A stretch of 64,000 bases of DNA. It comes from Geosiphon pyriformis (Eukaryota > Glomeromycota > Glomeromycetes > Archaeosporales > Geosiphonaceae). Positions 1 through 63,519 of the stretch are shown piece after piece. Where the stretch lies: positions 322,812-386,811 of the forward strand of contig JAAOMT010000082.1 in assembly GCA_016748015.1 (NCBI GenBank), given 5' to 3'. The stretch's first letter is position 1, and each line of letters begins with the position of its first letter. The notes under the pieces were generated by a model. It was given only the letters and a program-made list of their open reading frames with translations, searched no databases and was not told where the DNA came from. Made by a program: the position numbers and the translations under genes.

Positions 1-1300
1 ATACAAAATGGTTTATACATATCTAATTATAAATTTATTTATATCAAATTTTTAATTAATTTTTAATGAGTTAAATAATTAAACTTTGGAATTTTCACGA
101 TGTCGTTTAGCAGCAGTAATAATATAAAATTCAGAGTTGAAGGAATAAGATAAAAAAATTTTAGTTTGAATATTTGGAAAATATCACTTTGAGATAACAG
201 TTTCCTCAAAGAATTTTCATGAAAATTAGTTTCCTTACTAAACCTTAAATACATTCTCTCTAATAATATTAATTTGAAATGTGGCTATTAATAAAGAAAT
301 TATAAATATAATTTAAATCAATATATATGATTTCCTATTCGAAAATATTAATTTTTGATATATTAATCAATCCAATAAACAAAAAATATTGATTGCTGCT
401 AATCATTCAATTTTTTTCCTCTATAAATTCTCAGAGCTTCTTCAAAACTTCTTACCTTACTAATTGATTCGCAATTGCCCATTTCTACCCCAAAATAAGG
501 CCCATTATGAAATAATTTGCCCGGAACTTTATTTATTAATTGACCAGCATTGCACTCCTAAAAAATAAAAAAACCGATTTTTTAACGCTTTTTTACTGAA
601 AAATTCTAAATTCAATATAAATTAATACTAACCATATTCTCTTGAGAATACTGCGAATAGGGCCATTCTTTTCTTTGATCAATTGAAAGCGAAATAGAAT
701 TACAGTCCCAATACGTATTTGGGTCATCATCAGCAGGACAATCACAATTACTCAATGGCTCAATCCAAATTTCAGTACCAAAATGTTTCCACCCATTTGA
801 AGACGAAGGAAAGTGCGGCACATGATCATTTCCATGAGTAAAACGGCGATGAACGATTGCTATGTTGAAAGCATCGCTAAGGTGCTCATTTCCAACTCTC
901 GGAGCTCCATAAGTATAAATAATATGCCCTATTTCACCTATATTAATATCCGGCCAAGTATTCATTTTGGTAATTTTATATCTTTCCAATGCCCATCTAA
1001 ATGCAGCAATGCAGACATATGCTTATAATATATACATATATATAGTTAAAAAAATTTCAATGTTAAAAAAAATACTTGACTTTCAAATTTTAAAATAGAA
1101 AAATATTTAGGAAACTAACCTCCACCCAGACCATGTTCCGTAAATACAATATCAAGCTTTTGAGCTGATTTTGTGGATTTACTCAAAGATAATTTAATTT
1201 CTTGAAGTAAATTAGGAAATAATAAATTTACATCTTTTAATAATTGGGAGTCTACAAGAATTTCTTTGGCCAACTTTATATCATCATTAAAATAAAGTGA
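1..1300. repeat. Segmental duplication, copy A (partner at 35008-36255)
   Basis: This stretch is nearly identical, apart from small indels and point changes, to 35008-36255 in the same orientation. It covers the last exons of the lipase-like gene and about 400 bp downstream of it. Copy A runs off the window edge, so its true left limit is unknown. An insertion of about 30 bp near 365-390 and a T-rich tract near 410-418 distinguish it from copy B. Confidence 0.9.
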
Positions 1301-1958
1301 CACTTATCTTGGATTTCTAGCAGCCCATTGTTTTTTTGTTAATTTCTAATATAATTAAAGAAGTAATACTATCTCAAAATTTTACTTGAATTAAAATTTA
1401 AAAGCGGTTGAGATAATTACTTGTCCTGCAAACGCTATGATTAAAAAGCCATCAATTGGTGAATATTCGTAAAATTGAACTCCCACTAATGAACAATATT
1501 TGAAATATATATAATAAATTTTTTTTTAAAAAAAACTTTTATTTAAGACTAATTTCTTTTCAGATACCTTTAATTTGTAAACCAGGCACTGTCGAGCCAA
1601 CATTATTTAGACCAAGACAGTCAAATGTATTTATTATGAATGCAATATCCGAGGAAATCACTAACTCTTCATCATCAGTTAAAATTGATATTTTAAGTTG
1701 TGATTCTGAACGTTTTTTGGTTTGATTGATTTTTAGTGGAATATGTATTTTATTTATCCAATTAATCATAATAGGAGAGGTATAATTTATATCTAGTTTT
1801 TCATTGTTTTGAATTATTACTTTAGAGGCTATCCAGCTGCCGCTGTGGTTTTCACGTATCAAAAAATAAAAAACTGATACCACACAAATTGCGGTAATAA
1901 TATTAAATTTTCTCTGAAAATCAACCTTGAATCCTATTTGATTATTAAAAGAATCCAT
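399..1958 (-). pseudogene. Class-3 lipase-like gene with in-frame stop and Ser-to-Gly nucleophile
   Basis: Alpha/beta-hydrolase of the fungal lipase class 3 family (Rhizomucor lipase type). Five exons join in frame: 1568-1958, 1421-1485, 1120-1345, 633-1021 and 399-557 (410 codons). Residues about 18-36 are a hydrophobic segment near the N terminus, suggesting a signal anchor. FAGQ stands where the family usually has FRGT. The nucleophile elbow reads EHGLGGA, so residue 224 is Gly (GGT) instead of the catalytic Ser. TYGAPRVGN follows, then NDHVPHFP with the expected catalytic Asp (about 293) and, in the last exon, the expected His before YFG (about 374). A TAA at 1304-1306 interrupts exon 3 at codon 166; the duplicate at 36.2 kb has TAT (Tyr) there, so this is probably a nonsense mutation. 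A shorter product starting after the stop cannot be excluded. The family assignment is firm; lack of hydrolase activity is inferred. Confidence 0.8.
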
Positions 1959-2434
1959 TTTTTTGATTTTTAAGAAGGATATAAAAGAGTTTTATTTATA
2001 ATTTTTTAAAAGATACACTAAAGAAAGATACTATGTATCAAGCTTATTTGTTTGCTTAGAACATCTCATTTTAATAATATAAATAAATTAATGGGTAATA
2101 TAATTTTTATCCTCTTTTTGAAAATATTTTTCCTATCATACTATATCAAATTTTAATTAAATCCAATTTATAAACAAACCTATTATATTTTATTTTTATT
2201 ATATTTAAAAAATTATTGGTTAGCTAAAAAATTTTTAGAACGCAACTTCATTCACCATAATATAATTTAAAACTAGCACTCCCTTCTTCATAATAATTCT
2301 CTTCAGCATGCTGACAGAAACTTTTTTTTTAGGTTCAACTTTGAAAGTGTTTTCGAAGGGTCATCACCAAGAAGAACTAGGAAGTAGAGCGTTATACATG
2401 TAGTAGTACTTATGGTCAATAATACATTATAATC

Positions 2435-2870
2435 AAATTAGCTGATTATCCTCTTGCTGTAGATACCCAATCAAAATAGGGAGCTCGCCTTTAAAGAAAT
2501 TTCTATACTTAAAAAAGAAGCCCTCTTTTAAAAGTTCAGACTCGCACTAATAAAAGTTACTATAATATACGCAACAAAATAATATTTAGAGGGATTCTAT
2601 ACAAAGTTTAAAAGGAAAAAAGTTCACAATAGTTGATATTATTTATAGTTTAGGTGTATTATTATATGAATTGGCAACACAAATACCTTCCTTTTACGAT
2701 TATTCTCATGATGTTATTCTGATAATAGCTATTCTCAATAATAAAAAACTCAAATAACCTTCCCTCTTATTCCATCTTGTATTGATAAGCTCATTGAAAA
2801 GTATTATAATCCCAATTTATTGAATGGCTCAAATGCTAAGACGTATCATAAAAAGCCTAAAACTGAAAGC
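2435..2870 (+). pseudogene. Decayed protein kinase C-lobe fragment
   Basis: Kinase-like residues are recognisable but broken. LADYPLA near 2437 sits where an activation-loop DFG motif is expected. KGKKFTIVDIIYSLGVLLYE from about 2610 matches the subdomain VIII-IX region (usual form SDIYSLGVLLYE), followed by PSFYDYSHDVIL. A TAA follows at about 2755, and the next part (IPSCIDKLIEKYYNPN) continues in another frame. The N-lobe with the Gly loop and the VAIK lysine were not found. It resembles the large TKL/Sel1-associated kinase families of arbuscular mycorrhizal fungi. It is non-coding now, with at least one stop and one frameshift. Confidence 0.65.
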
Positions 2871-5403
2871 TACTGTTTATTTAATTAGAAAAACACAGCA
2901 AAATATCAACACCAGTGAAATAATGAATATATCGCATTTCAAGTTTCCAGAAAAGTGAAATATAAGATAGTTCATCTTTCTGCCTTTATTAAACAATTTT
3001 TTGGATTAATTAATTAATTAATTAATATGCTAAATTAATATACTTTTCACCAAATCTAGTGTATTAAAAAGTTAATAAATTTTATGGAATTATTTAATGC
3101 TTTTTTATCATCTAACATAGTTATTTTAAATTTTATAATGAATAAATAATTTGTTGAATCATTTTTCTAAATTTAATTTGAGGAGAACTTCTTTAATTCT
3201 TAAAATTTAACAAATTTATTGTAACTTTTAAAAGAAAGAATTAAAATATTTGTTAACTAAGTAATTAACTTTTTAATTATTGATCAACCAATAATAAAAA
3301 TATATTCTGATTTGAATTTTGTAAAAAAACAATTTTAAAATATTATTTAAACCTGTTATTCATTTTGAATTTTTTTAAATTATGCTATTGATTCCCTTGA
3401 TTTGTTGCATATTATTAAAGATTAAAAAATAAATATATTGTTTTTAATGGTGCCTATTAGTTTTTGAATAAATTTACAAAATTAGTCATTTTGATCTTAT
3501 TAAATTTAAAACTTAATGAAAATTCATAATACCCAATAAAGTTGAATAAATAAAGTATTTATCAAAAAATTGTAAAAAAAATTGTTTTTATTTATTATTA
3601 TTTGAAATAACTGGTTTGTTCATTAATTTTTAATTAGATATTTAAAAATTGTGAGAATTTTATAATGTTTACAAAGATTCTATTATGCCTTCTCAATTTC
3701 GCATATAAGCTGTTGTAAATTTTAAATATATATTAGAAATTATTTATTTTTAAAAAATTAGAATTTCTATATACTATACTTACATTTAATGCTGTTCTCT
3801 CATGCCTATTCCTAATATCTTTTCGAGGCTAATATTGACTAACCAACAATGCATCTTTAGTATCAATATCATTCTTTAAATTTTTTTCTCTTCTCTTTGC
3901 TTAATAGTAAAAATTTGATAAATCCCCCATTTCCAGTTATATCAACTGTCTTGCCAATTTATCCTTGGTATTTAGATTAATTTTATAATTTTCTGAAGCA
4001 TTTTAAAAAGATGTAAATTTCCAGATATTGCAAATTAATTCCAGAATTATCGAATGTATTAAAAGAAAATTCAAATATGCTGTACAATAGCAAAAAAGAT
4101 TAGAATTTGAGAAAATATTCTAGGAAAAATAGAATGCAGCAATATGTATTTGGTATTCGGCCTAAATTAATTGGTGCGAATATAGTTTTTGGCTAGAATG
4201 ATGTAAAGTATTTCACAATAGCCAGATGACCTTGAAATTATAATAAATTATAACATAAATATTAATAATTAATATTTGATAAAGCCAAGATTGATAAATT
4301 TATTTATTTTTAAAGCCAGATAAATACTATTTCAGCTATTTTTATTTTTTAAATTGACTTTGGTTCCAATTTGTACTAATTCTTTTGTGATGTCATTTTT
4401 TCTCTTCGTCACTATAAGAAAAATATCGAAATCAGAAATAAATCTGATAGAAAAACTAGAAAAGGTCAAAAGTATTAAATAGATTTATCCCCACCTGAAA
4501 TTATAGGTGCTCATCAACCATTTTACATACAATTTACATATATATATTCGAATGATAATATAAAAACTTGAAATATTCTAAATCATAAATTGGTTGCCTT
4601 CATGAGTTTAAAAAGATATGCTTATTTACTTAATCCAATACTAGAAACTTTCAAAAAAAGTGGTTATTTGAGTTTTTACATACCATAAACTTCTGTAACA
4701 TCTACACTAAATTGCTTTAAAACCAATTTCAAAAATATTTCGGATAGATAATTTTTGAATAAAGTAAAATAAATTGTTCAAATAAATGTTTCAAATTAAA
4801 ATTAAGTAAATAAAAAAAACAATATAATTATTTTTTGTTAGTTTAATTTGCTTAATAAAAACAGAAAAGTTTTATCAACAGCTGGATTCCTTATTTTGTT
4901 TGCCCTCGGTTTTTCTTTTAACCAAATTTAAATGCTTTAATCGAAAACTTTATCATAAATTATTTGATTAATCATTTATAAACCATTAATAATGAAGTAA
5001 ATATTAATCCTTTTATATATAATAATATTATAATTTCAAAAAAATTTAATACCATTTTTTAAGAGCCAGTCTTTTGAATTAATTTTTAAATTACGAATAA
5101 AATTAAATTAAAATTATATTAAAATTTAGGATTTAAATTTTAAAATTGAAAAAAAACCAAATTATCATAGAAAATTTTATTCATGTTTTTAAAACAAAGC
5201 AATATAATATATTTGATTTATAAATTCAATATTATTTAACCAACTTTTAATATTTATTAATTTGTCTAGATAAATAAAGTATTATTACATTTTATAAATC
5301 AAAATTCTAGTATACATCATTAAAAATAAATTATACTTATAATAATTTTATCGCTAATTAAAGTTTAAGTCAAATTCCTATTTCACATTAAAATAGCAAG
5401 ATA

Positions 5404-5493
5404 ATGAAGAATAAAGTTGCTATTTTATTCATTTCAGCGATTATTATTTTCTTAGAGATAAAAATTGATAAAACTATCTTCTACTCATTGTAA
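5404..5493 (+). CDS. Possible very small ORF with hydrophobic N terminus
   Basis: ATG at 5404 opens 29 codons starting MKNKVAILFISAIIIF, which looks like a signal peptide or membrane segment, and ends in TAA at 5491. It could be the first exon of a small secreted protein, since open sequence follows at 5633-5869, or chance in AT-rich DNA. Nothing confirms expression. Confidence 0.15.
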   Translation: MKNKVAILFISAIIIFLEIKIDKTIFYSL

Positions 5494-7199
5494 AATCCTT
5501 CCAAGAGTTTATGACCACCATCTTGAGTCAGAAATTTCCTCAACAGAAGATCTTAAATGAAATATATGAATGTAATTAATTTCATTAAATTCTGGTGTTA
5601 AAACCTAATAATAGAATATAACATTAATTAATTTGTCTAACTGGGCTTCTCGACTAAAAAAATTAACTTTTACTAATTATTTTTATAATCCTTTAATTAA
5701 TTTACCTTTGGCAGATATCGAGGCTCGCCCTTTAAATAAAATTACTACAGTTAAAAAAAATAATCTCTTTTCATGGCTTAAAAGTTCAAGGTTCAGAGCA
5801 AAAGATATTGATACCATTTGTCCAAATCTAATTTGTATTCTATTAACTTTAAATCACCTGAAATCTTAAAAAATAAAATATGAAAAATTTAGAAAATATC
5901 AAGTTTCATAAAATTTATAAACTTATTATTTAAAAATAGTGATAAACTTTTTAAGAAAAAAAATAAAATATTTTTTTAAATTAAATTTTCATTTATTGTA
6001 TTAAATAAATATTCCAAAAACAGTCATTTAAAAATAAAAAATTAATTTCTTTAATAAAAAATGCGCAAAACCCTAAAACACTTGTTAATGAGATTGTAAC
6101 ATGGATGATCAAATATTTATTCTACAAATTAACTATACTTCAATCTAATAGTGTAATTTACACTCTTAAAACCACTACAATATATGCAGTTATTGAACAT
6201 GGACACTCTAAATAAAAAATGCATTTATATTTAAAATTATTTGTATTTGTTGTTAATTTGATTAATTGATTGATAATTCTTATTTTATCGAATTTTATTG
6301 TCTGATAGCATTTTTAATAAATTAGGATTTAAGCCTTAAAATCTCAATTTAAAAATTATGTTTATATTTTTGGATGAAAAATGAATCAACCCACTTAAAT
6401 AGGCTAATTTTTATCGATTATATTTTAACTATTTATGATATATAATTAGCAATTTTATTTTTAAAATTAGTTGTTAAATAAATTGTTAACCTTATTAATA
6501 ACTTAATAATTTAACTTAATTTTTGACTTAGATAATTATTTAATTATCAAACAACTTTTTTATTTTTAAACTATGTGAAAGTCAGGAAGCAAAAATTGAT
6601 AACTGTGGAAATAATTCAAAAAAGGAACATAAGTGATTGAATAAAATTGGAAATTGAATAAAGAATAAAAATTAGCAAGTATAAAAGACCTAAATTCCCA
6701 GGCTTGAAATAAACAATTTTTAATATAAAAAATATAAGAAAAAAGTTTGCCTATGTAGCAAACTCAAAAATATGTATGAAATTACCACAAATTCCAAATT
6801 TTTACTAAACCTCCAACATAAATCAGCATGAAGAACTTAAAGGATCAAAGAGCACAGGTTTTTTATAAATTTGTCATGTATTTATAGCCGTTTTTATTGG
6901 AGAAAGCGAATTTTGAAATGATAAGTCAGTGAAATTTTACGATAGAAATATGGAGAGATTGATTGTAAGTTCTAGTCACAGATGCTTTATTTTCTTTTGA
7001 TGGCTCTAAACTATGAATCACGAAAAAGCATGGAAGTACTTAATCCGATAAACAACATTTTTTATTAGCTACATCACTATTTCGTTTGGTAATTCAATCA
7101 TTTTCGTCTTTGGTATAGAAAACAAAATAATAATACAAGAATGAGTTGCTTATACTACCACTAAGTATCGGTCAGTTATTTATACCCAAAATTCCAGAT

Positions 7200-7217
7200 G
7201 GTCACAGAAGTGTGACC
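7200..7217. repeat. Short perfect inverted repeat (7-bp arms, 4-bp loop)
   Basis: GGTCACA-GAAG-TGTGACC. The arms pair perfectly. It lies in otherwise AT-rich intergenic DNA and could be the end of a lost DNA transposon or chance. Confidence 0.4.
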
Positions 7218-8929
7218 AGAAAGGTGAACTTGAGGAATTTCCAATCTTGAACTTTGGAATTTGGATAAGAAATGAACTAATTTCCCACTTTCTTTTTAGG
7301 GTAGAAGATTGGAAACAAACTGATTAAAAATTTTAAGAAAAACTTTGAGGGTATAAATCCTTTTCTTCTGTCATTTGTGAAGGTTAGAAAATCAAAATTT
7401 GGTTGAATTAAATCTCATGTGAATAACCAATTTTCACTAATTTTTTCAATCTTTTATAATAAACCTAATTTCGTTAAATATTGATATATATTTTTGTTAA
7501 TAATTTAACTTAATATTCCAAAAAGGTTTGTGATCTTGCATAAAAGCTGATTCAGAACATCTACATTTCGTGTTTTAATAATAGGTGATCAGATAAGAAA
7601 AAAATGTGATGAGGTTTAGTATTATATGTCAAAAGAATTATCACTATGTACGATATCTCTCTAACTCTAAATGTTAAAACAAAGGATAGAACACTCAGTA
7701 GTCTTTTAAACAGTTTTTTTGAAAGAAATATTTAGTTTAGTGTATAAACGAATTATATTGGACTCTTCAATCCTATCACCCAATTAGGTTTGATCGTGTA
7801 ACTTTCAGTAATTTTAAAAACCTAAGTATACGGTATATGCTTTTAAACCAAAAGAAAAAATTATTTTTAAATTATATTTTTTTTAATCGAGAAATTGCTT
7901 TATTTTATTATGAAATAATTAAATTCAAGTGTGTTTAGAAAAAACACAAGATTTTTACAAATTTATTTGGAAATAAATATTTAGATTTATATATACGTTT
8001 TTTAGCTGATTTAGAGCCTAAAAAAACAAATTCTTAAAACAAAACAAGCTGAAAGAAACATTATTTAGGCTAACAATAGTTATAACTATTAAAATTCAGT
8101 TATCAGAAGACTATAATAATTTGAACATTTTTGTAACATATATTTAACAATTATAGTGTATGATGAGTTAAAAATGCCTGAAATAATATTAATTCAAAAA
8201 TGATTTAATGTGCATTTAAATATAATGAAACCTGAAAATAAATTGATTTTCAATTATGACTTTGTTGATATAAAAAATAATCTCCCACTTTATGTTATTA
8301 TTATGTGAATTTTGATCAAAGAACCTTGTCAATAACAATTTGGAAAAGTCTGGATTTATGTGATGAAAATGGTTATAATAAATATTGTGAAATGGAATTG
8401 AAAAATTATAGTAATCCTTGGCTTTAAAATTTTATTTTAGTTTTCATTTATAATATATTAATTTTGTAAAAAAAAAATTAATCATTAATCACGGGTTGTT
8501 ATAAACAAATCTGTAAATTAAATTATACCCTAAATGACTGATTTCCATCATGATAGTCAATATGGATCTAAATAATGGTAAATGAAACTTGGAAAAAACC
8601 AAGTCAAAAAGAATAATTTACATATCTTAAGATAAATATTTTAATTTTGAATGAAATTTTATCAGGAATGATGGGCACATGTATTAAAAAAATCTATTTT
8701 GATTGGATTAATTGAAAAATCAAATCGAAGCATGCCAACCTAAATCTTTAAGGATAGGATTCAACTCATTATTAATATTTAAAAAAATCATAAAAAATGA
8801 TAATAAATCACATGATATTTGTAAAAATTAATTTCGGAAAATAGAGGAAACTTGAAGCATCCCAATTATGTGAAATTTGGCTAAAACAGACTTTTATATG
8901 TAGGAATATAAAAAATTTCATTCATTTCG

Positions 8930-10440
8930 TTATTTAGCTGGGAAGAACTGCTGACAATTTCCAAAAGTTGTGCCAAACCATGGACCAAAATGTGCAACAC
9001 TGCTTGATCCATCTGTTCCTGCATTACATTCCTGAAATTTAGATTTAAATTTAAATTTTAGGTTTTCGCGAGAAATCTTACCCATTACGCATGATGAAAA
9101 TAATATTGATGCTAAAAAGCTTTTATTTGCAAATCCTTACCAAATTCTCACCAAACTGTTTCTGACCATTAGGTGAATATCCAGGACATTGGTAGACTTT
9201 ATACAAGCCATTCCCAATTTTTTGTCCAGCCATTGAACCACAATCGCAATCTTCAATACCCGTAATCCAATATTCAGTATCAGTATGCCAATATTGCACA
9301 TTATCTATAGATTTTTTTGGAAATTGGGAGACGTAGTCATTCCTATTGGTCACTCTGTAAATTTCTACCAAGTTCTCCCTATGAACTTTTTCAACAAATT
9401 TACTATCACCCATACGTGGTTGACCGAACGTAATAACCTGGATCTCAAATTTTCGGCCAAATGGATACCCCTCTACTAAACCACTAGATATGTAGAAGGC
9501 TGCGCTTAAAGCATATGCTTGAAATAGTTAATCAAAATTATTTTATTAGTCGAGAAATATTTTACATGAACTCGAAAAAAACAAATATTTGAAATTTGAA
9601 TATTATTATTTTTTACTTCCTCCAATTCCATGTCCAGTAAAAATTAATTTAATTTTAGATCCAGACATTGTTTTAGCTAATGTCATAACTCTTCCAATGG
9701 CATATTTGATTTCAGGATGTGAAGGTACTCTAAAAAATTTAGAGTCCATTTGTCCTCTCTTTTTAACTTCCGTTTTAAATAAAATGTTTTTACGTTTTTC
9801 CCATTGAAATCTTGTCATCTCTCGGCCTATGAGTCAAATATTAAGAATAATAGAAAATTAAAATCTTTGAATCGAGATTTGAAAATAACGATTAAAAACA
9901 CCTTCCTCTAAAATGCCCAATAATATGTTCCTTTTTTTCATCCAAGAATACTTCAGCTGAATTTGGCATGATAATATTAAAAAATTTCAGCAAGTTGGAC
10001 AATTTTTTTCGAAATTTAAATTTCATTAAAATCTATTACTCACCCTTTCTATTAATTTGTGGAAAACAATAAGGAATATTTGCTACTCGAGCCATTTCTG
10101 TAAAGAAATCAATTAAAGCTACATCAGTCACAAGTATTTTTGAGGGAGACGAGTTTTCGAGTTTGCCAAACCCTCGGTTTATTCGTTTTAATAGATGTGC
10201 TTTATTCCAACTTGAGGTAGAATTTAAAGATGGAATGCGTATTTTTATAGGTGGATTATAGGCACCATCCAATATTAGCTTCGTGATTGATGAAATGTTG
10301 CAGTGATTTGAAGATTGGGAATAAAAATTATTAGGGAAATAAACAAACAGAAAGTAGGACCCAATTATTGTAATAACTGAAAATGATTTAGAAACTTTCT
10401 TTATGAAATTTTCATAATTTTTAGACAACATTCCTATCAA
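8930..10440 (-). CDS. Class-3 lipase-like protein, catalytic Ser replaced by Gly
   Basis: Second member of the serine-less lipase family, divergent from the one at 399-1958. Exons 10044-10440, 9902-9956, 9617-9810, 9141-9517 and 8930-9031 join at GT-AG sites (introns 87-109 bp) to give 374 codons with no stop. A hydrophobic segment at about residues 20-36 suggests a signal anchor. IIGHFRGR corresponds to the family FRGT region. The elbow is GHGIGGTYA with Gly212 (GGA) at the nucleophile position. TFGQPRMGD follows, then NRNDYVSQFP (expected Asp, about 276), a Cys-rich DCDC segment, and AHFGPWFG with the expected His (about 355). The exon 2/3 junction is the least certain: the in-frame acceptor at 9811 drops a few residues that align with the paralog, while a stronger-looking CATAG acceptor just upstream would be out of frame. 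The intact frame argues the protein is maintained. It probably cannot hydrolyse esters by the usual mechanism. Confidence 0.8.
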
Positions 10441-32224: not shown

Positions 32225-33771
32225 ATGGCGCTCCAACAACACTTTCAAGCTCTATCCAATGATTTCGGAAATTTACTAGAGAGCCAAAAATTCTCTGATG
32301 TTAAGATTGTTGTTGGAGAAGCGCCCAATATCAGAACTTTTCATGCTCATTCGCAAATTTTAGCAGCAAGATCACCATATTTTGCCGTAGGACTCTCAAG
32401 TAATTGGGTTAAAAGGGAAAACAATGCCATTATCTTCACTAAACCTAATATTACACATAATATTTTTGAAATAATTCTCAGGTGAGGGTTTTCATTTGCT
32501 TTAAAGTATTTTGGCCAACATCAATTTATATTTTATTTTTCTTGCACAGATATATTTATAATGGCGAGATTTCTCTTGATGAACATGGAGTACCTGCCAT
32601 ATTAGAATTGCTTATGACCGCTGACGAGCTTATTCTAGAGAATTTGTTTGAACCCATTGAAGACTATTTGATTAAACACCATGCAAAAGAGCTGGAAAAA
32701 AATTTCGTCATTTTGCAGAAAACTTTATTTATGCATGATTCTTTCAAAAAGTTACAGAAATTCTGCACCGAGATAACTGCTAAAACTCCAGCTATAGTTT
32801 TCAACTCGCAAGATTTTACCTCCCTCAGTGAAAATGCTCTTTCCTCAATTTTAAACCGGGATGACCTAAATATAGAAGAATCTGAAATATGGGAAAAGAT
32901 TGTGGAATGGGGAGTTGCTAAATTGGAATCAAATATTCAGATGAAAAAAGTTCTTTACTGGACAGATGGAAACTTTAACGCCTTTAAGGAATCCATTGAA
33001 AGGCTTCTACCTTTAATACGCTTCTTTAACATATCTTCAGTTGACTTCTATCACAAAGTAAAACCATTTGCGAGAATCTTACCTGGAACTTTAAATGAAG
33101 ATCTTTTACATCATTATCTCGTACCAGATAGTCAACAAAAGTCTGCAAACGTTCGGCCATTACGATCAAACATTGATTCAAAGCTTCTTCAATCGCATAA
33201 TATAAAACAGCTAGATAATTGGATTCAAGGCAAAGACGAAAATATTCGTTCTGAATATCAAGTTAGAAATGATTTTAATTTGTTACTTCGAGGTAGTCGA
33301 GACGGATTCACTCCAGCCAATTTTCATCGATTATGTGATAATAAAGGAGCAACAGTCAGCGTAATCAAAGTGAAAGGAACTGGTCAACTAATTGGCGGCT
33401 ATAACCCGCATTCTTGGCACTCTGGGTATGGCATAAAAGATGGGACAGGAAGTTTTATTTTTTCTCTTGGAGATGGCAAAGCTGGAAAGGCTAAACTTAG
33501 CAAATTTGTTGGCTCATGTGGACCTTTTAGTGGGTCAAATCATGGACCCTCTTTTGGGGATGACAATATTTGTTTATATGGCGATGACTTTAAAAGTAGT
33601 CATTATTGCTATTGTAAAAAGACACGAGATTATGAGCATGTTATAATGCCTGGATCAGAAAATCAACAGATGAATTTCTTTGTCGAGGAGTATGAAGTTT
33701 TTCAAATCACAAAAAAAAAAAATTCGTTCAATTTATTTGATTATAAATCTTTTGAAGACTACATTATGTAA
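32225..33771 (+). CDS. BTB-BACK-TLDc domain protein
   Basis: Two exons, 32225-32481 and 32550-33771, split by a 68-bp GT-AG intron, give 492 aa. The BTB/POZ domain is at about residues 20-125 (FSDVKIVVGE, FHAHSQILAARSPYF, then YIYNGEISLDE across the intron), a BACK-like helical region at about 130-230 (AELILENL-type helices, ESEIWEKIVEWG), and a TLDc domain at about 305-485 (FHRLCDNKGATVSVIKV, GTGSFIFSLGDGK, FGDDNICLYGDD, FFVEEYEVFQI). BTB-BACK proteins often act as substrate adaptors for Cullin-3 ubiquitin ligases, and TLDc domains are linked to oxidative-stress resistance and V-ATPase binding. The pairing is expanded in arbuscular mycorrhizal fungi. The start is the first ATG and sits directly before the BTB fold. 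The last codons overlap a possible donor (ATGTAAGA), so an extra 3' exon is possible. Confidence 0.92.
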
Positions 33772-35007: not shown

Positions 35008-36255
35008 ATACAAAATGGTTTATACATATCTAATTATAAATTTATCTCTATCAAATTTTTAATTAATTTTTAATGATTTAAATAATTAAACTTTGGAATT
35101 TTCACGATGCCGTTTAGCAGCAGTAATAATATAAAATTCAGAGTTGAAGGAATAAGATAAAAAATTTTAGTTTGAATATTTGGAAAATATCACTTTGAGA
35201 TAACAGTTTCCTCAAAGAATTTTCATGAAAATTAGTTTCCTTACTAAACCTTAAATACATTCTCTCTAATAATATTAATTTGAAATGTGGCTATTAATAA
35301 AGAAATTATAAATATAATTTAAATCAATATATACGATTTTCTATTCGAAAATATTAATTTTTGATATATTGATTGCTGCTAATCATTCTCTATAAATTCT
35401 CAGAGCTTCTTCAAAACTTCCTACCTTACTAATCGATTCGCAATTGCTCATTTCAACTCCAAAATAAGGCCCATTATGAAATAATTTGCCCGGAACTTTA
35501 TTTATTAATTGACCAGCATTACACTCCTAAAAAATAAAAAAATCAATTTTTTAACACTTTTTTACTGAAAAATTCTAAATTCAATATAAATTAATACTAA
35601 CCATATTCTCTTCAGAATACTGCGAATAGGGCCATACTTTTCTTTGACCAATTGAAAGCGAAATAGAATTACAGTCCCAATACGTATTTGGGTGATCATC
35701 AGCAGAACAATCACAATTACTCAATGGCTCAATCCAAATTTCAGTACCAAAATATTTCCACCCATTTGAAGATGAAGGAAAGTGAGGCACATGATCATTT
35801 CCATGAGTAAAACGGCGATGAACGATTGCTATGTTGAAAGCATCACCAAGGTACTCATTTCCAACTCTCGGAGCTCCATAAGTATAAATAATATGCCCTC
35901 TTTCACCTATATTAATATCCGGCCAAGTATTCATTTTGGTAATTTTATATCTTTCCAATGCCCATCTAAATGCAGCAATGCAGACATATGCTTATAATAT
36001 ATACATATATATAGTTAAAAAAATACTTGACTTTCAAATTTCAGAATAGAAAAATATTTAGGAAACTAACCTCCACCCAGACCATGTTCCGTAAATACAA
36101 TATCAAGCTTTTGAGTTGATTTTGTGGATTTACTTAAAGATACTTTAATATCTTGAAGTAAATTAGGAAATAATAAATTTACATCTTTTAATAATTGGGA
36201 GTCTACAAGAATTTCTTTGGCCAACTTTATATCATTATTAAAATAAAGTGGTACA
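35008..36255. repeat. Segmental duplication, copy B (partner at 1-1300)
   Basis: Same orientation and order as 1-1300. Similarity fades just beyond the start of the third lipase exon, at about 36255-36300, so copy B lacks exons 1-2 and the promoter. Copy B lacks about 30 bp present near 365-390 in copy A. Confidence 0.9.
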
Positions 36256-36299: not shown

Positions 36300-38809
36300 A
36301 GAGTTTGATGTTCTCTGTGTTTATTAATAATAGATTTTCAACTACTATTATTTTTTATTAGATAATCACCATTTTAAATTTTTAATGTAAGTAGTGGAAT
36401 CATCCAATAATTTGTGCATTTTTTGCATTGGCATGATTCATTAATAATCAAATTATTAATTAAGTTATTAATTAAATTAATAATTAATTTATAATAAATT
36501 TAGTTAAGAAAATTTTTGAAGTTTCATTTTAAAACTAACTAATTTGTTAAAGTTTTTTTGCTAAAAAAATGTATAAAAGTTAAGATAAAATAAGTTGAAT
36601 CTAAAAAACTGAATCTTTATACAAAATTTTTTGGCTTTTTTTATAATAGTCAAAACTTTTTTAATTATTTTTTTAATTGTATTATAAAAAAAATTTATTT
36701 TAACAGTTATATATTTAAACATGTATTTATTCAACTAATTGTCTTTTTGTAGCAGTTTTCTATAAATTGATAACAGAAATTTTCAAATTTATCTTTAATT
36801 ATAAGTTGTTTTTAAAAAGAAAAAATACTTTTTTGTTTAAAAATATAAAAGGCATTTTGAATATTTTAATTGAAAAAAATTTTATACTAAATAAAAATAT
36901 GTTTGTTTTGGTGTTTTGCTAATTGATATTATAAATATTACAATAACTAATCAATTAGGGTTTTTGTAATACTTTTTAATATATATACTATAAATAATTA
37001 ATTATTAAATATTGTTTTATATTAATATTATTAAATACATAAATTATTGTTTAATTGTAAATAGTTTTTTAACAACTTTAAAATTTATTACTAGAAATAT
37101 TGTTTTTATTAGATTAATATTTTATCAATACTTGAAGAAAGTAATTTATATATTATTTTCTTGTGAAATTTTTTTCGAAGCTGTTTTATTTTTTTATAAA
37201 CAATTGTTTATGCTTTTATTAAAGAATTAATATCATTCTAAATGTTTATTAAAAAAATTTTATATAATTACTTTTATTATTTTTTTAGTAAAAATAGTTT
37301 TAATATTTGTTTCGATAAGTAATATTGTCATATTTTTATAAAGTAAATAGAAAAATTTATAATTAGTAATATTATTATTAATTATTCAATAAGCAAAAAA
37401 TGCTAAAAACAAAAACATTGTTTTATAAATTTGGTTTTAATTGAAGTTTTACATAATGTTTAATTAAAAATTATTACTAATTTATTGGTATTAAGATAAT
37501 AAAAAGAAAATTTTTGTAATATACTTCAAATTCTTTACAAAGTTCTTTTATTAATTAATTAAAAAAAGCTTTTTTCTATTATATAATAGTTTTTTAAAGC
37601 ATTTATAATAGTATATATACTTTTTGTTTATATAAAATTAGCAATTATAATAGCTGTTGAATTAAATATTGCTTGGGCTTTTACCTATTTTATTAAATAA
37701 TCTATAAGATTTATAATATATTAAATATTTAATCAACAAAAATTAAATGAATATTTTTTTTGTTTGTTTATAATTTACAAGATTCTGGAAATAATATAAT
37801 AAACCTATTTAGATTGCTTTAGAAATTTTATACTCAATATCTTGATAAACTTATTTTCATTAAAAAATATTGTCGAAAGAAAAGAATAATGTAATAAATT
37901 TGTAATATATTATAAGATTGGTTGAAATATTTCGAAATATTCTGCTTGGTTTACAAATTTAATCAATAATAAGAGTATTCAGATATAAAAAAAGAAACCA
38001 ATTCTATTTTTAAAACAATTATTTCTTTTTATTATAAGAAACAAAAGATTATTTTAATGTTTACAACCGAAATAATTTATATTACATAAAACTTAATCTT
38101 CATTTATATTGCTTAAATTTGTTTTTTTTTGTTGAAAAAACAGCTTGAAAATTTTTGTGATTAGTTCTTCAACAAATATTTAGCAGAAAACCTATTCAGT
38201 CTATACTGTATATTTTTTCGACCATGTTTATTTTGAAGATATCTTTAAAGACAAAGACAATTACCCATATATTTAATGGAAAATAATAAATATATCATAT
38301 TAAAAATAATTGTAAACTTAATAATATTATTATTAGATTTATTTTATCATAAATATTTGATAAATTATATCAAAACTAACTCACCAAGTGATTTTTATTA
38401 AGTTAAATAAATAAATTAGATTTACATAATTTTAAATAATAATGTACAAAATATCTTATTGTCCAACATAAAAAAGAAAACTTTCAGAAACTCATATAAA
38501 AACAGAAAATTGTTATATTAATTATTTTTGTATTATAAAAAAGTTAATCATGATGATGTCCACTAAATTTTCAGGCATAAAAATAAAGATAGAAATGATA
38601 TTCAGCTTATTAATTCATAAAGAAAATGAATATTCTAATATAAATGTTTTGATAATCTTTCCCATCATCATGGGATCTTTATTATTCCCCAGTTTTTTAC
38701 ATAAATTACGATCTTTAATAATTAAAATTAAGACTTATTGATAGAGAAAAGTTTCGACTGTAGCTGTAAGTTTTTATTTAGTCGAGGATTGCTTCATAAT
38801 TCCCTTAAA
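36300..38809. other. AT-rich intergenic DNA upstream of the P450 gene
   Basis: Nearly pure A/T with many runs, then more mixed sequence over the last 250 bp. ORFs at 37012-37230 and 38550-38741 look like chance. No repeat or gene was identified. Confidence 0.5.
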
Positions 38810-40601
38810 ATGATTCCTTTTTCTTCTCTATCAGATGGCTATTTTGACCTCATCACTATAATAAGCATTCTCACTCTGATTTTAGCTCTTTACATCGGGC
38901 AATTTTATCTCGGTTATTTCACTCGTAAAAATCCACTTCCTGGTCCATTTCCCCTCCCATTAATCGGCAATCTTTATCAAAACAAGGGCCACTTTGCCGA
39001 GTGGATTCATCAACTATCCATTAAACACGGTGAAATTTTCGAGCTCTGGATCGGTTCACAACGCCAAATTTGGTTAAGTAATTTAGATGAGATCTCGAAA
39101 ATCAATCAACCCTCGACTAAGAGTAATTTCATTCGTCGATGGGCCTATAGCCAAGGATTAGAGGAATGGGGAACTTTGCATGGAATGGCTTATAACCGTG
39201 ATCTAAAAAGCGTTCTTTACTATCGAAAGATTACGGAAAAAGCTGTGACAATCCCGAGTTCTTTACAAGACATAATTTTGAATACGCAAAAAAGATTCGA
39301 AGACTTGGAGCAGTATTGGCATGAGATTGGCCAAGGCGGAAAAGTGATCATTGATTTGCCAGCTTGGATCGTCCCACTTTTTTCTGACCTTATGTATTTG
39401 TCTATGATGAGTAAAAAAACTCAGTTTACCGCACAACATTTTAATTCCCTGTCCAAAGACCTGAATAAGAAAATTGAAATTGACCCTATAATGGAAAAAT
39501 GGATGGAAAGATTTGTCACGGCGTTTAGTGAGATAAAATATGCAGTTCATTTCTTTACGTTATTCCCAACTTTTCTGAGATGGACCGTTTTTCGGCATTG
39601 GAAAAGCAAATACTTGAATTCATATTCCCAAGTAAAGGCTATTTTGATTGATTTGATTCGAGAACGAAAGAAGTCAATTGATGTGACCAGTTTTGATAAT
39701 GAACCCGTTGTGAACTTGGATATGTTGAGTCAATTGCTTACTATGAACACCGGAAGGCATGTGAGTTCAAGAAATGATAAGGATAGCATGTTAATCGAGC
39801 CGTTGAATGATCACGAAATTCAATCAATTTTACTTGAAACCATTTTTGGATCTATTAGCACAGTAAGTTAAAAATATATTGACGGAGAATTCTCCAATAT
39901 GTTTTGAGTTCCGAACTCATGCTTAAATATGATTTTTATTTTCTTTGATAGACTACAAATACTTTTGCATTTATTGTGGAATATGTTGGTCGAGATGAAA
40001 AAGTCTTGGAAAATATCAGACAAGAAATTGATGCAAAATTTCCACCTAATGAGGAATTTAAAATTTTTTATGAAGACTTAAATTCATTAAAATACATTCA
40101 GGCTGTAATTAATGAAAGTAAGTTTTTGAATTGAAATTATACACGAAAAATTTTACCTTGAATTTTTCAAATCTCACACAAAATATGGTATTTCGAATAT
40201 TTCCAGCGCTTCGATTGAGTCCGAGTGCCTCACTCTTATACCGAGCCAACGAAAAAGATGATTATGTAGGAGGCTACCTTTGGGAATCAGGGACTCAATT
40301 CGGGCTTAACCTTTTATCGTCACATTTGAACAAAAAATTATGGGAAAATCCTCAAAAGTTTATACCTGAACGATTTTTTAACCCAGATCATAAAAAAAGG
40401 GAACTTTATTCTTGGGGTGGTGGGTTAAGAATTTGTCCTGGTAGAGTTCAAGCTATTGTATTTTTGAAAGTGATGATTGTGTTGCTTTATCGCAAATTTG
40501 ATATTGAATTAGTGGATGCTGATAAACCAATCAAGACTAAGTTTGATTTTATTAATACGTGTCTTGGTGCTAAGGTTTTTATTAAGCCGAGAAAAAGTTA
40601 G
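38810..40601 (+). CDS. Cytochrome P450 monooxygenase
   Basis: Heme-thiolate monooxygenase, membrane-anchored. Exons 38810-39862, 39952-40117 and 40207-40601 join at GT-AG sites (two 89-bp introns) to give 537 aa. A hydrophobic anchor is at about residues 13-35, then the proline-rich hinge PLPGPFPLPLIGN (about 43-55). The I-helix region reads GSISTTTNT at about 347-355, with the conserved Thr but no acidic residue before it. The K-helix ExxR is ETLR at 406-409, made across the last intron. PERF follows, then the heme loop WGGGLRICPGR with the ligand Cys483; Trp stands where Phe is usual. An in-frame ATG at 38738 would add 24 residues, but the one at 38810 places the anchor correctly. Family and substrate cannot be named from sequence alone; sterol or lipid hydroxylation is only a guess. 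Confidence 0.9.
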
Positions 40602-50500: not shown

Positions 50501-51670
50501 AGTAATAATTCTTTTTTTTGGTACTTAACTTAGTGTAAGTCCAACCGGCTGGTCACATGTAGAAAATGCATGATTCACGTCTAATTTTAAAACTTACAAG
50601 TTCCCAAACGGACTGTTCGAATGAAAAAGAGCATAGTTAATCTTTTCAAGATGGATAATTTTTTTAAAAATGCAATTAGTCTCTGACATTTCATTCATGA
50701 CATTCGACCAAGTAGAATTAGGCAAACAAATAGTGATAATCATAAATTTATCCCTTCTCTTCAGAGTGCGTGATCATTAATTTAATTCGCTCATTTTATA
50801 CTCATTCACAATACAAGGCATAGTATGTAAGACAGGGTGGCGATTAATCCCTAATAATGCCTTTACCGTTCTTTCATCTCTTTCTATTGATCATTTAGTT
50901 GTTCCCCTTAGAAATTGTCTCTAAAGTTGTTAATATAAAAATAAACTTCAACACAAATATTAATTTTACTGGAAAACTCTTCCAAAATAATGCAGCAATA
51001 ACCCAAAAAGTTTCACAATAGCCGGGTTACAAAATGCGTAACAATAAAATTACAAATTACCATTACCTAAATAGGCTGGCATACACTACATAGCCCAATA
51101 CAGTTATTTCGATACATTCCTTGAACCACAAAGCTCCTATTCGAAAATCCAAATTGTACGAAGTAGGCTGTGTATTAATGCTTTCCCTTGTATGCATGCA
51201 TAAACAGGAGGTGAAGGAGCGTTTAAATTTACAACAGAATACCCTGTTTTTGTACTGGTTCAGAGAACGCTTTTCTCGTCTCCTCTGGCTTTTATCATAT
51301 TTCTCTATCCAGTTTCAAGAGAGAAAAAGCCTCTTAATTGAGCTAAGGATAATTTTGAAGTTTTATCACTTTTTTCGACAATAGTAAAGGAATATATCTT
51401 GAAAGAATAATTACCACAATATTTGAACGAAGAAAAAATTGACTTAAAATCATAAAAGGCCTTTACCTGTTGATAATAAAATTTCGGATTTAGTATATCA
51501 AAATTCTATAACTAAAAAAACAGAGACTCCAAAGACTCAACCATTTTTTCAAGGACACTTCTCTTTCAGAAGAGAACAATTCAATAAACTTAGTACCTAT
51601 TTTAAGAGTGTTCAATACATTTCATGGCCTTCTAATAATTAAACTCAAAAATTATAATTTTTCTTCCAAA
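50501..51670. other. Upstream region of the secreted repeat protein gene
   Basis: Base composition returns to that of normal genic DNA at about 50520. There is no recognised gene; an open stretch at 51121-51384 (+) starts with TTG and has no family features. The presumed promoter and 5' UTR of the gene at 51671 lie here. A 13-base string TTTCACAATAGCC at 51011 also occurs at 4211. Confidence 0.45.
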
Positions 51671-53594
51671 ATGACACCAAACACAAAATTTCTCATGATT
51701 AGCTTAACAACCACAACTCTATTTCTATCCTTGTGTATCACTTTTCTTTTCTCACCAGGCCAGGTCTTTTCAGCACCATTGGATGTTGGCAGTAACAGAC
51801 TCGCCCGTCGTTTCCCGGTTCCTGTGACGCCGAAATACGATCTTACTGCAAACGGTAATGGTAATGGTAATGGTAATAGCAACTTTGGATCGAACAATGG
51901 AAATACAAATGGAAATGATAATACAGGTGATCTGAATGGTAATGATAATGGAAACGCGAACAAAGGTGATGCGAATGGGATTGGCAATGGAAATCTCAAT
52001 GTTGGAAATGCCAATGGTAACGCCAATGGAAATCTCAATATTGGAAATGCCAACGGTAACGCTAATGGAATCGCGAACAAAGGTGATGTGAATGGTAATG
52101 ATAATGGAAACGCGAACAAAGGTGATGCCAACGGTAACGCCAATGGAATCGCGAACAAAGGTGATGTGAATGGCAATTCCAATGGAAATCTCAATATTGG
52201 AAATGCCAATGGTAACGCCAATGGAATCGCGAACAAAGGTGATGTGAATGGCAATTCCAATGGAAATCTCAATATTGGAAATGCCAACGGTAACGCCAAT
52301 GGAATCGCGAACAAAGGTGATGTGAATGGCAATTCCAATGGAAACGCGAACAAAGGTGATGCCAACGGTAACGCCAATGGAATCGCGAACAAAGGTGATG
52401 TGAATGGCAATTCCAATGGAAATCTCAATATTGGAAATGCCAATGGTAACGCCAATGGTAACTATAATATTGGTAATCAGAACGGCAACCAAAACGGAAA
52501 CTTCGACTTGGGTTCATTTAATGGCAATAACAATGGAAACAACAACTATGGAAGTCAAAATGGGAATTTGGATGGAAATTTCAATATTGGAAACTATAAT
52601 GGTAATTCAAATGGTAACTATAATATCGGTAATCAGAACGGCAACCAAAACGGAAACTTCGACTTGGGTTCATTTAATGGCAATAACAATGGAAACAAAA
52701 ACTATGGAAGTGGAAATGGGAATTTCGATGGAAATTTCAATATTGGAAACTATAATGGTAATTCAAATGGTAACGATAATATCGGCAATTATAACGGCAA
52801 CGAAAACGGAAACTTCAACTATGGCTCATATAATGGCAATAACAATGGGAACAACAACCATGGAAGTGGAAATGGGAATTGTAATGGCAATAACAATGCA
52901 TATTTCGATTATGCTAGTTCAGAGAAAAATACTGATTATGAGGAAGGAAATAAATGTCCAATGTAAGTTTCTTGGTTTTTTTAACGCAATTGAGATGATA
53001 TTTTTGCTGAACGATTTTTTAACACTTATTTGATTTTCTTTTTTCTCTGCGCACATTAATTTTGCATATTTGATCATAATATCATCAAGCATTTCCATTT
53101 CAATCTCTTCAAAGACAACGACAACGACAACGACAACAACAAAGACAACGACAACGACAACAACTTCAAAGACAACGACAACGACAACGACAACAACAAC
53201 AACTTCAAAGACAACGACGACAACTTCAAAGACAACGACAACAACTTCAACTTCAACAACATCACCACCACCCAAATCTACTCCACCACCACCACCACCA
53301 CCCAAATCTACTCCACCACCACCACCACCACCACCACCCAAATCTACTCCACCACCACCACCACCTCAATCTACTCCACCACCACCCCCGCCACCTCAAT
53401 CTACTCCACCACCACCCCCGCCACCTCAATCTACTCCACCACCACCCCCGCCACCTCAATCTACTCCACCACCACCCCCGCCACCTCAATCTACTCCACC
53501 ACCACCACCTCAATCTATTCCACCACCACCACCACCTAAATTTACTCCACCGCCACCTCCAGAAGATACTGAAGTGGATACATGTGAATTGTAA
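51671..53594 (+). CDS. Secreted tripartite protein: Asn-Gly repeats, Thr linker, Pro-rich tail
   Basis: Exons 51671-52962 and 53090-53594 join in frame (598 aa) at a CAAT|GTAAGT donor and a CATCAAG acceptor. Residues 1-35 form a signal peptide (hydrophobic core about 7-27, likely cut after VFSA), with a dibasic Arg-Arg at 46-47 that could be a Kex2 site. Residues about 60-425 are 13-residue repeats of the form N-x-x-[I/K/L/Y]-G-x-x-N-G-N-x-N-G. A Cys-containing joint (NKCPI) leads to a Thr-rich stretch with SK interruptions (about 436-485), then repeats of STPPPPPPQ or STPPPPPPPK (about 487-590), and EDTEVDTCEL at the end. The first part may fold as a solenoid; the Thr part is likely O-glycosylated; the tail resembles plant extensin. 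An upstream ATG at 51608 is in frame but would bury the signal peptide. If the intron is not used, the protein ends at NKCPM. Function is unknown. Confidence 0.75.
51850..52910. repeat. 39-bp based tandem repeats with 78-bp and 156-bp higher-order units
   Basis: The first half is made of 78-bp units (two 13-codon repeats), several nearly identical between about 52146 and 52460. The second half has a 156-bp unit (four 13-codon repeats) at about 52460 repeated at about 52616. Near-identity at the DNA level shows recent duplication or gene conversion. Long antisense ORFs here come from the repeat. Confidence 0.9.
53106..53560. repeat. Low-complexity coding repeats (ACAACG and CCACCACC types)
   Basis: ACAACGACA-type units encode the Thr run (53106-53260). 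They are followed by 30-bp CTCAATCTACTCCACCACCA-type units, five nearly identical (about 53365-53515), encoding the Ser-Thr-Pro repeats. These lie inside the second exon of the secreted protein gene. Confidence 0.9.
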
Positions 53595-59950: not shown

Positions 59951-62900
59951 ATGCAGACTGCTTTAGGGCAAAGAAATAACACCCCATTACCATTATTTAG
60001 AGGTAATGTACAAGATCTAATTAAATGGTTGGATGACTTTGAGAGAGCTGCTACAGTTAACCAATACAATAATAAGTACAAGTTTCAAATTGTTGGTGGC
60101 TATCTTCAAGGCTCCCCTGCCACCTGGTTCTTACAAAAAACTGATGCCAATGCCCATCAAAGAATCATTAGATGGATGTCAGCAAATGCTGGAGAAAACA
60201 ATACCTCTTTTACAACCCAGTTTAAAAACAAGTTCAGAACCACAATCTTGATATCCAAGTGGCACATGGAATTAGAAAAAAAAACTCAAGGCCCTGGTGA
60301 AATTGTAACTGAATATGCTAAAGCAATCAGAAAGTTAATCAAGTGTGTAGACTCTGGAAAAAATTGGACAGAAGAGCAAAAAATTTATTCCTTCACAAAA
60401 AGATTGAGAACCGATTTATCTTATGCTCTTTGGCTTCTCTTGGCCCTGAAAAACAATCCTACAATAGACATGGCCATTGAACTTGCCCAATGAATTGAAG
60501 ACAACCAAAGAATACATTTGGAATCTACACTTCCAGTTTTTGCTTCTGCTCTTGTCATAGCTCCTGCTCTTCAAATGACTGCTGCCTCTTTTGCTGCCCA
60601 AACTTAAGATCCAAATGAACAATTAATTGATAAACTTACAGCCAATTTTGCCCAGTTATTAGAACCTTTGGCACAAGCAGTTAGAGATAACCAACAACCA
60701 CAAAGACCCAGATATGAATTACGTTTTAATCAGCCCTAGCAACCTCCTTATCAAAGACAGCAAAATCGTGATTTTTTTGTATGTTATAGATGTGGATTAA
60801 CTGAACATTTCTCAAGAGATTGCAACAATTCTCCTTTATTTTCTCCAGTCCCCAGAAATAATGATAATCAAAACAATAGATCCATTAACAATAATACTCC
60901 CAATCAAAGACCCAACCATGCCAACATCAATTTCTTTGGAGAGGATCCTCTAGTTGAAGCCACAGTCTATTAGCCTTTAAACTGGTAGGTGCACCTCCAA
61001 AGGGTAAGAGTGCAAGCCAACCAGAAAAAAACCCCTTTTTCACTTTTAACTTAACTAATAATGACCATGACATGAATGAATTAGCAATCAACACTTCTGA
61101 ATCAACCAGAAAAAAGAAGAAAGCCAAGATTGATTTCATTCTAGATCCCAACAAAGCCTCAACTTCCACTGCTGATAACAATGAGCCACCAAAAGCCAAA
61201 GTTTTTAAGAACCCTCCAAAGTTGGAACCCCCAGAAATTGTACAAAAATCTGGACCTTATTCTGTTGTCAAAGATCTTATAGAAACTCCAGCACATATTA
61301 CCTTTGGCCAGTTAATAATCTATTCACAGTTCAGAAAAAATCTTCGCAAATCTCTAATCTCCAAGAAGAAAACACCAAAGACCAATAAACACTCTCGCCA
61401 AGCTGGACTTGCTGACAACAGCAATGTCACTCCTCTAATTTGCAAAGCACAAGTGGCTGGTTACTTCATTAACTTGATCCTAGACAGTAGATTATCTGTT
61501 AGTGTAATTGCCAAACACTTTCTTGAAGCAATTGGCAGAAAAATTGATGAGCCTTCTACCTGACCAATGACCAATGTACATGATGACAAGAAGAAAGGTC
61601 TGAGTATTGCCAAAGCTATTTCTGTTTGCATCAATGGCATTAGTATTGAAACTAACATGGAAGTTTCTGAAGCTAAAGAATACACTATTATTGTTGGCAA
61701 TAAGTGGCTCAAGAAAACAAAAGCCTTACTCGACTATGAACTTTGTGAGCTAATCATAAGATGTGGTGAAAAACTCATTGTGGTTAAATGTCACCATTGG
61801 ACAACTTCTCCAGCAACCAAACAAAATCAAGAAGATGAGCAATCAGAGGAATCAGATGATGAAGAGAGTGATGAAGATGATGAACAAGAAGAACAAGAAG
61901 AAACTGCTGAACTTGCCTACACCACTTTTACCAGCAATGGCAAACTACTAGACAATGTTAAAGCTAATAGAGAGGGAATCATTGTGAATGGCAAGCTGAT
62001 CTGCTGGCCCTACTATGATATCCTTAGAAGAATCTTTGACCAAAAACCTGGCAAAAAAGCCAAGTACTGTTATTGGTGGCATGGTCTTTGTGCCCAGTGC
62101 TGGTGCAATAAATCTTTGTATTCTTCAAGTGATGAATGCAAATCATGTCTAATCTATTACAAAGATTGAGAACCAATCAGTTTGATACCTAGAGAAGAAT
62201 TGAAAGAAGTCCAAAAGTCCTTTAAAAATGAACCACCTGAGATCCAATCACTAGTTGTAGAACAAAGAAAACTCTCTTCAGAAGAAAGAAAAATAGACAT
62301 TGAAAATCTGCTGGCTAGAAACAGTCCAGTTATCTCAAAAGAAAGTAATACCTCTGGACAAACTCATGTGATACAACACACTATCACCACCAAAGAAACT
62401 CACCCCATCCATTTAAAGCCATATTAATCCAATCGCCACAATGATGAGTTCATCAAGAAAGAAATAAAACAAATGAAAAATCTTGGATTCATACAAAAAA
62501 CCAAGAGTGAATGAGCTTTTTCAGTTGTAGTGGTATCCAAGAAAGGTGGAACCTTGTGCTTCTGTGTCAATTATTGCCAATTAAATGTCATCACTGAAAG
62601 AGACATGTATCCACTTCCCAAAATTAATGCAATGCTAGATCAATTCAAGAGTGCTGCTTTTTTCTCAACCATTGATCTAACTGTTGAATTTTGGCAAGTA
62701 GAGATGAATTCAGAAAGTTAGAAGAAAACCGTCTTCATAACCAAGTATGGCATCTATGAATTCACAGTTATGTCTTTTGGTCTTATCAATGCCCCTCCCG
62801 CTTTTCAATGCTTAATGGATAAAATATTTGAATCAGTGAAAGAAAACTTTGTTCTGGTCTATTTGGACGATATAATGGTGTACTCAAAAACCTGGGATAA

Positions 62901-63500: not shown

Positions 63501-63519
63501 AATTTTAGCTATTAATTAG

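Follow-up and report, generated by a model that had tools for sequence, protein, structure and literature searches.

What kind of protein does a lipase gene encode once its catalytic serine has become glycine? The question is raised by two class-3 lipase-like genes, and a partial third copy, in a 64,000-nucleotide stretch of Geosiphon pyriformis DNA (contig JAAOMT010000082.1, positions 322,812 to 386,811), here called the window. The window has a GC content of 24%, and the assembly that contains it comprises 124.7 Mb in 406 contigs. The sequences indicate that both genes belong to a large, intron-split family with the class-3 lipase fold of the T. lanuginosus (TlL) and R. miehei (RmL) type, whose members mostly have glycine in place of the nucleophile serine. 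The Gly family keeps the Asp and His of the catalytic triad, the GxPRxG core and a CxC cysteine pair, and the close pairs sampled show purifying selection. The reading we favor, with a probability of roughly one half, is a lineage-specific expansion of membrane-anchored or secreted pseudo-lipases, which would bind lipid in the retained Gly-His-Asp pocket.

The gene at 8930..10431 (minus strand), called gene 2, is an intact Lipase_3-like gene of five exons (10431-10044, 9956-9900, 9826-9617, 9517-9141 and 9031-8930) and 377 amino acids, with GT donors and AG acceptors throughout. Its splice sites, like those of all gene models here, were read from the DNA sequence. The weakest call is the exon 2/3 donor (T|GTTTTT), and the arrangement there is identical in the relative L061. 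The Pfam and structure searches used a query of 378 amino acids, one residue longer than the model. The Pfam family Lipase_3 (PF01764) was matched at 58.6 bits (E 8.1e-16), above the curated cut-off of 22 bits; a scan to E 1 found Lipase_3 alone, and no EP domain. Among solved structures the T. lanuginosus lipase was matched at E 6.5e-8, and the glycine of gene 2 (codon 9629-9627, minus strand, in TGHGIGG) is aligned opposite the nucleophile serine of its GHSLGG. The matches include 1gt6, a T. lanuginosus lipase without the nucleophile, with Ala in that place, which we take to hold oleic acid. The Asp context (NDYVSQFP) and the His context (AHFGPWFG) are both present. The glycine is indeed kept in at least one intact frame, as a preliminary description of the window had proposed.

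Gene 1 (399..1958, minus strand) follows the same exon plan (1958-1568, 1485-1421, 1345-1120, 1021 to about 633, and about 557-399) and is disrupted by an in-frame TAA in exon 3 (1306-1304, minus strand). Its glycine codon lies at 1132-1130 (minus strand, TEHGLGG), both the Asp context (NDHVPHFP) and the His context (FHNGPYFG) are present, and part of the gene matches Lipase_3 at 47 bits (E 3.2e-12; cut-off 22 bits). The third copy, at 35008..36250 (minus strand), has its glycine codon at 36083-36081. It is a 5'-truncated partial copy, recently duplicated from gene 1 together with the 3' flank, with 98.1% identity over 364 bases and 94.8% over 881, and therefore adds no independent evidence. 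The segmental duplication to which it belongs pairs window positions 1-1299 with about 35008-36250 and ends just beyond the gene 1 stop. All three places, which lie on the minus strand, carry Gly, and the Gly had been described. Of the three copies cited, however, only gene 2 is intact; gene 1 is disrupted, and the third copy is its duplicate.

The prevalence of this replacement was assessed by a genome-wide census, in which a DNA pattern for GHxxGG followed by a splice donor was run together with backward-pattern controls. The pattern matched 321 times (control 2). Glycine occupies the nucleophile position of 230 elbows (control 0) and serine that of 35, namely 31 with AGY codons (control 0) and 4 from a pattern with A, C or T as first and second codon base (15 matches, control 1). 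The other 56 elbows, for which a further pattern supplied 48 matches (control 0), carry Ala (25), Asp (10), Asn (4), Glu (3), Tyr (3), Phe (2), Leu (1) and Ile (1); the remaining 7 have G as the second codon base, and 2 of these are Cys among the matches listed. Elbows without Ser thus stand to those with Ser as 286 to 35, or about 8:1; the 286 include up to 7 G-second codons, two of them seen as Cys. All these counts are lower bounds, because some variants escape the pattern, among them gene 1, with Glu in front of the elbow His, and gene 2, with A in front of the donor. The DNA at GHAIGG is nearly the same in many of the 25 Ala elbows, which points to a younger burst of Ala-elbow copies.

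The comparison outside this genome covered prokaryote and viral-contig relatives, and no other fungus. A scan of prokaryote genomes with a single sequence found no relatives, and an alignment query was then used. The prokaryote set (80 of 87 confirmed loci, found with an elbow-independent pattern) contains 79 Ser elbows and one Gly elbow; the viral-contig set (80 of 101 loci, found with patterns that allowed a Gly elbow) contains 79 Ser elbows and one that is unreadable. Serine is therefore present in 158 of 159 readable elbows and glycine in 1 of 159, compared with 230 of 321 in the genome (Fisher p 1e-59, in a test that ignores relatedness). The sole outside Gly elbow (GHGLGG), among the 80 prokaryote relatives, is L142, from a Gemmatimonadetes metagenome-assembled genome. 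Within the genome itself, a canonical Ser member matches the R. miehei lipase at E 1.3e-34, and its HxGPYFG is aligned with HLTYFG of 6a0w.

Could the missing serine be supplied from elsewhere in the gene? Of 73 elbows (L001, L002, L009-L078 and the window genes), 63 could be given a two-exon, splice-aware model, which yielded 38 rows with Gly, 19 with Ser and 6 with other residues. The sample is non-random: L009-L048 were taken by Lipase_3 score, L049-L063 as Gly elbows and L064-L078 as Ser or other elbows. L027 and L073 were left out of one analysis, and L026 as well from the trees and the topology test. The nucleophile codon ends 10 bases before the GT donor, within its exon, and the next exon follows in phase as A/T-Y-A/V; such a splice-consistent downstream exon was found for 63 of the 73 elbows and for none of the other 10. 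With the codon inside an exon and the phase carried on into the next one, splicing gives no Ser, and a serine from another exon is excluded for these 63 elbows. The preliminary description had regarded such a serine as fatal to its own reading; this RNA-independent look found none in the sequence. Likewise, among the columns of more than 55% conservation that were inspected, the Gly rows have no strongly conserved Ser column that could provide a replacement nucleophile. At x in GHGxGG, 34 of 38 Gly rows have V, I or L, and the glycine codons (GGA 17, GGT 16, GGG 3, GGC 2) vary in their third base while the residue stays.

The catalytic Asp and His are better preserved than the nucleophile. In Gly rows with letters at the position, Asp is present in 37 of 37, His in 23 of 25, the R of GxPR in 38 of 38, and the two cysteines of CxC in 34 of 34 and 33 of 34, and the earlier statement that the Asp and His contexts are kept holds well beyond the window. 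Ser rows have Asp in 18 of 19 and His in 11 of 13, and CxC is a gap in 16 of 19. The conserved CxC cysteines look like disulfide partners, rather than a replacement nucleophile, and the disulfides would be formed outside the cell. The His position of VHxGF is Asp in 26 of 38 Gly rows and His in 3; in the Ser rows it is His in 13 of 19 and Asp in 2. The residue after RG, presumably the Ser/Thr of the oxyanion hole, is Ser or Thr in only 2 of 36 Gly rows (both Ser) and in 7 of 16 Ser rows, with a few rows reading into the intron there. Seven canonical Ser rows have Thr at this place and the other nine do not.

This pattern bears on the possibility that the Gly proteins are still enzymes of a non-canonical kind, in which water or a substrate group would occupy the space of the serine and be activated by the His-Asp pair, so that hydrolysis or transfer would proceed without a covalent intermediate. 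The retention of Asp and His in the Gly rows is consistent with it, and so is the pairing of elbows with the exon that carries the catalytic His. The pattern for that exon matched 317 times in the genome (control 0) and a version without the His 443 times (control 9), part of the excess being TLD genes, as judged by position. Pairing covered the region in which the listed matches overlap, from contig C8 to C227 at 249,987. There, 61 Gly elbows have 36 His exons and 0 non-His exons, 7 Ser elbows have 5 and 1, and 10 other elbows have 1 and 3. Three further non-His sites with a codon beginning with C, seen by eye in a check that ran to C177 only, belong to a Gly, a Phe and a Tyr elbow. The His to non-His totals are then 36:1 for Gly and 1:5 for other non-Ser elbows, which have mostly lost the His (Fisher p 3.7e-5, with related copies not independent, and with elbows lacking a detectable exon, 24 of 61 Gly and 4 of 10 other, left out). 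Among all the matches listed, an exon without the His comes after 4 of 100 Gly elbows (of 230), 3 of 35 Ser elbows and 7 of 49 other elbows. Nevertheless, 34 of 36 Gly rows lack the oxyanion Ser/Thr, and no precedent for such an enzyme was found in the literature searched; we regard catalysis of this kind as unlikely.

Another possibility is that most Gly copies are decaying duplicates, either pseudogenes or genes in functionless drift. The stop in gene 1, the broken second exon of L053 and the 10 of 73 elbows without a downstream exon are all in keeping with it. Nei-Gojobori ratios of nonsynonymous to synonymous substitution (dN/dS) for six close Gly pairs are 0.43 for L050/L057 (one-sided Fisher p 0.003), 0.38 for L037/L038 (p 0.0001), 0.37 for L049/L062 (p 0.00003), 0.55 for L022/L036 (p 0.004), 0.43 for gene 2/L061 (p 0.00008) and 0.57 for gene 1 and its duplicate (p 0.23), where some exon-A stretches may contain intron codons that raise dN. 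The last pair is not distinct from 1. Five of the six pairs, at 0.37-0.55, are significantly below 1, so the check for purifying selection that had been suggested earlier turned out in favor of constraint. Moreover, most elbows (63 of 73) are followed by an exon consistent with splicing, the length check left 35 of the 38 Gly models standing, and Asp and His are kept across deep divergence. Decay as the general explanation is thus very improbable.

The glycine had been thought simply to predate the split of the window paralogs, and this does not hold as written. A 60-row tree, built with the nucleophile column excluded, requires at least 5 Ser/Gly changes (5-6 over bootstrap trees, 3 of them forced by starred branches), and holding all Gly rows together is rejected (approximately unbiased test, p-AU 0.012). 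A single Gly origin was accordingly discarded. Both window lineages are nonetheless inside one main Gly clade. In a quick rooted tree, with fragments of three lipases as outgroup (one outgroup row misplaced) and support only from the Shimodaira-Hasegawa-like approximate likelihood-ratio test (SH-aLRT), RGT-bearing Ser genes are basal, followed by other Ser genes and then by a 43-row clade (SH-aLRT 89) of 35 Gly rows, 3 Ser rows (L064, L069 and L072) and 5 others. L033_p6431 and two rows of L020 are Gly rows outside this clade, and L072 is placed with Ser rows in the 60-row tree and inside the Gly clade in the rooted one. As judged from these trees, Gly has more than one origin, although most Gly rows belong to a single main clade. 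The oxyanion Thr after RG was probably lost before the nucleophile, because it is found only in the seven canonical Ser rows and is absent from the other nine.

An essential catalytic residue has been lost and purifying selection acts on five of six pairs, the two marks of a pseudoenzyme. The usual acyl-enzyme would not be formed, because the nucleophile and, nearly always, the oxyanion Ser/Thr are gone. The pocket could still bind an acyl chain or a monoacylglycerol, with the His-Asp pair hydrogen-bonding its head group, and the proteins, diversified by duplication, may bind, sense or carry lipid at the surface. In favor of this reading are the prevalence of Gly elbows in the genome against their rarity elsewhere, the retention of Asp and His, the coupling of the Gly elbow with the His exon, the scarcity of the oxyanion Ser/Thr, the low dN/dS of five pairs, the hydrophobic N-terminal segment and the nucleophile-less lipase 1gt6. 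Glycine relieves strain at the nucleophile elbow of this fold, which may be why it is the usual replacement. As to location, a strong hydrophobic stretch was found in the first exon of 10 of 12 Gly models and 5 of 5 Ser models (first exons were found for 19 models) and, by eye, in both window genes. This N-terminal segment fits a signal anchor or, equally, a signal peptide, with the domain outside. Hence, of the membrane-anchored pseudoenzyme family first proposed, the pseudoenzyme-like character stands, in a family that is very large, while the anchor shares its evidence with secretion.

Several observations weigh against lipid-binding pseudo-lipases. Site-rate ranks over 213 columns in a 42-row Gly clade place the elbow His at 1, the CxC cysteines at 8 and 12, Asp at 9 and the catalytic His at 24, and the Gly column, at 71, is less conserved than Asp or His, with five rows picked for non-Gly elbows. 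The kept His-Asp pair is also compatible with catalysis; of the six close pairs, that of gene 1 and its duplicate is indistinguishable from neutral; Ser and Gly have switched several times; and the Gly clade contains a few Ser rows. We still rank lipid-binding pseudo-lipases first, ahead of recognition or decoy proteins (discussed below), catalysis by the His-Asp dyad and, last, decay. A rather tentative extension is that in about 300 lineage-specific cell-surface genes the Gly-His-Asp site in the lipase fold is itself what is selected, be it for capture, sensing or hand-over of host lipids (monoacylglycerols, fatty acids) or for hydrolysis without a protein nucleophile. The symbiont is thought to depend on host lipid. 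If the fungus itself is arbuscular mycorrhizal, which is probable and suggested by its many TLD genes, members of the family could be put to the test for a part in how such fungi handle host lipid.

Known systems provide partial parallels. With the fungal class-3 lipases (PF01764; T. lanuginosus, R. miehei) the family shares the sequence family, the elbow context, the GxPRxG core, Asp and His; it differs in the change of Ser to Gly, the mostly missing oxyanion Ser/Thr, the VHxGF His that is often Asp, the extra CxC and the anchor-like N-terminus. Neuroligins and Drosophila yolk proteins have Gly at the nucleophile position of the alpha/beta-hydrolase fold, but are other families of that fold, with few genes. 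To our knowledge, pseudoenzyme families usually consist of one or few genes; here Ser-less elbows prevail about eightfold in one genome with the rest of the triad kept. No report of a Gly-elbow class-3 lipase family was found in the literature searched, which left most subscription papers out of reach.

The plant proteins EDS1, PAD4 and SAG101 are class-3 lipase-like. According to the accessible text of PMC12069366, their hydrolase activity is reported as non-essential for immunity and the catalytic triad of SAG101 is not conserved, a precedent for using the class-3 lipase fold without need of hydrolase activity. They differ in their C-terminal EP domain, of which Pfam finds none in gene 2, and in gene number (11 in soybean, in the same text, against hundreds here). 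This precedent, together with weak matches of gene 2 to EDS1 and PAD4 in the structure search, favors a recognition or decoy role, in which the fold would be kept as a scaffold and duplicated rapidly for recognition of self or partner or for decoying host molecules, with no lipid required in the pocket. The hundreds of diverged copies, many of them in clusters such as the eleven Gly elbows from 249 to 310 kb on contig C252, are also consistent with it, as is the dN/dS of Gly pairs (0.37-0.57), above that of the few unsaturated Ser pairs (0.21-0.31), which are at much larger divergence. A pure scaffold, however, would leave unexplained the near-invariant Asp and His of the active site and the link between the Gly elbow and the His, and this role seems rather improbable. 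The accessible text of PMC11105155 gives 348 Lipase_3 genes for Entomophthora muscae, likewise a very large set in one early-diverging fungus; there it is described as digesting host tissue, and elbow residues are unmentioned in that text. Because profile annotation labels Gly copies as lipases, the numbers of lipases given for early-diverging fungi may mislead.

Other features of the window lie on the plus strand. An open frame at 32482-33771 has a TLD match, at G000:C268:355986-356519, which is one of at least 148 in the genome; TLD genes in such numbers suggest Glomeromycotina. Two open frames at 38738-40601 resemble, by eye, a split cytochrome P450. Adjoining open frames at 51608-53594 contain long NGN repeats and Thr/Pro-rich repeats. 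Finally, open frames at 59951-63519 resemble, also by eye, gag, protease and reverse transcriptase pieces of a long terminal repeat (LTR) retrotransposon.

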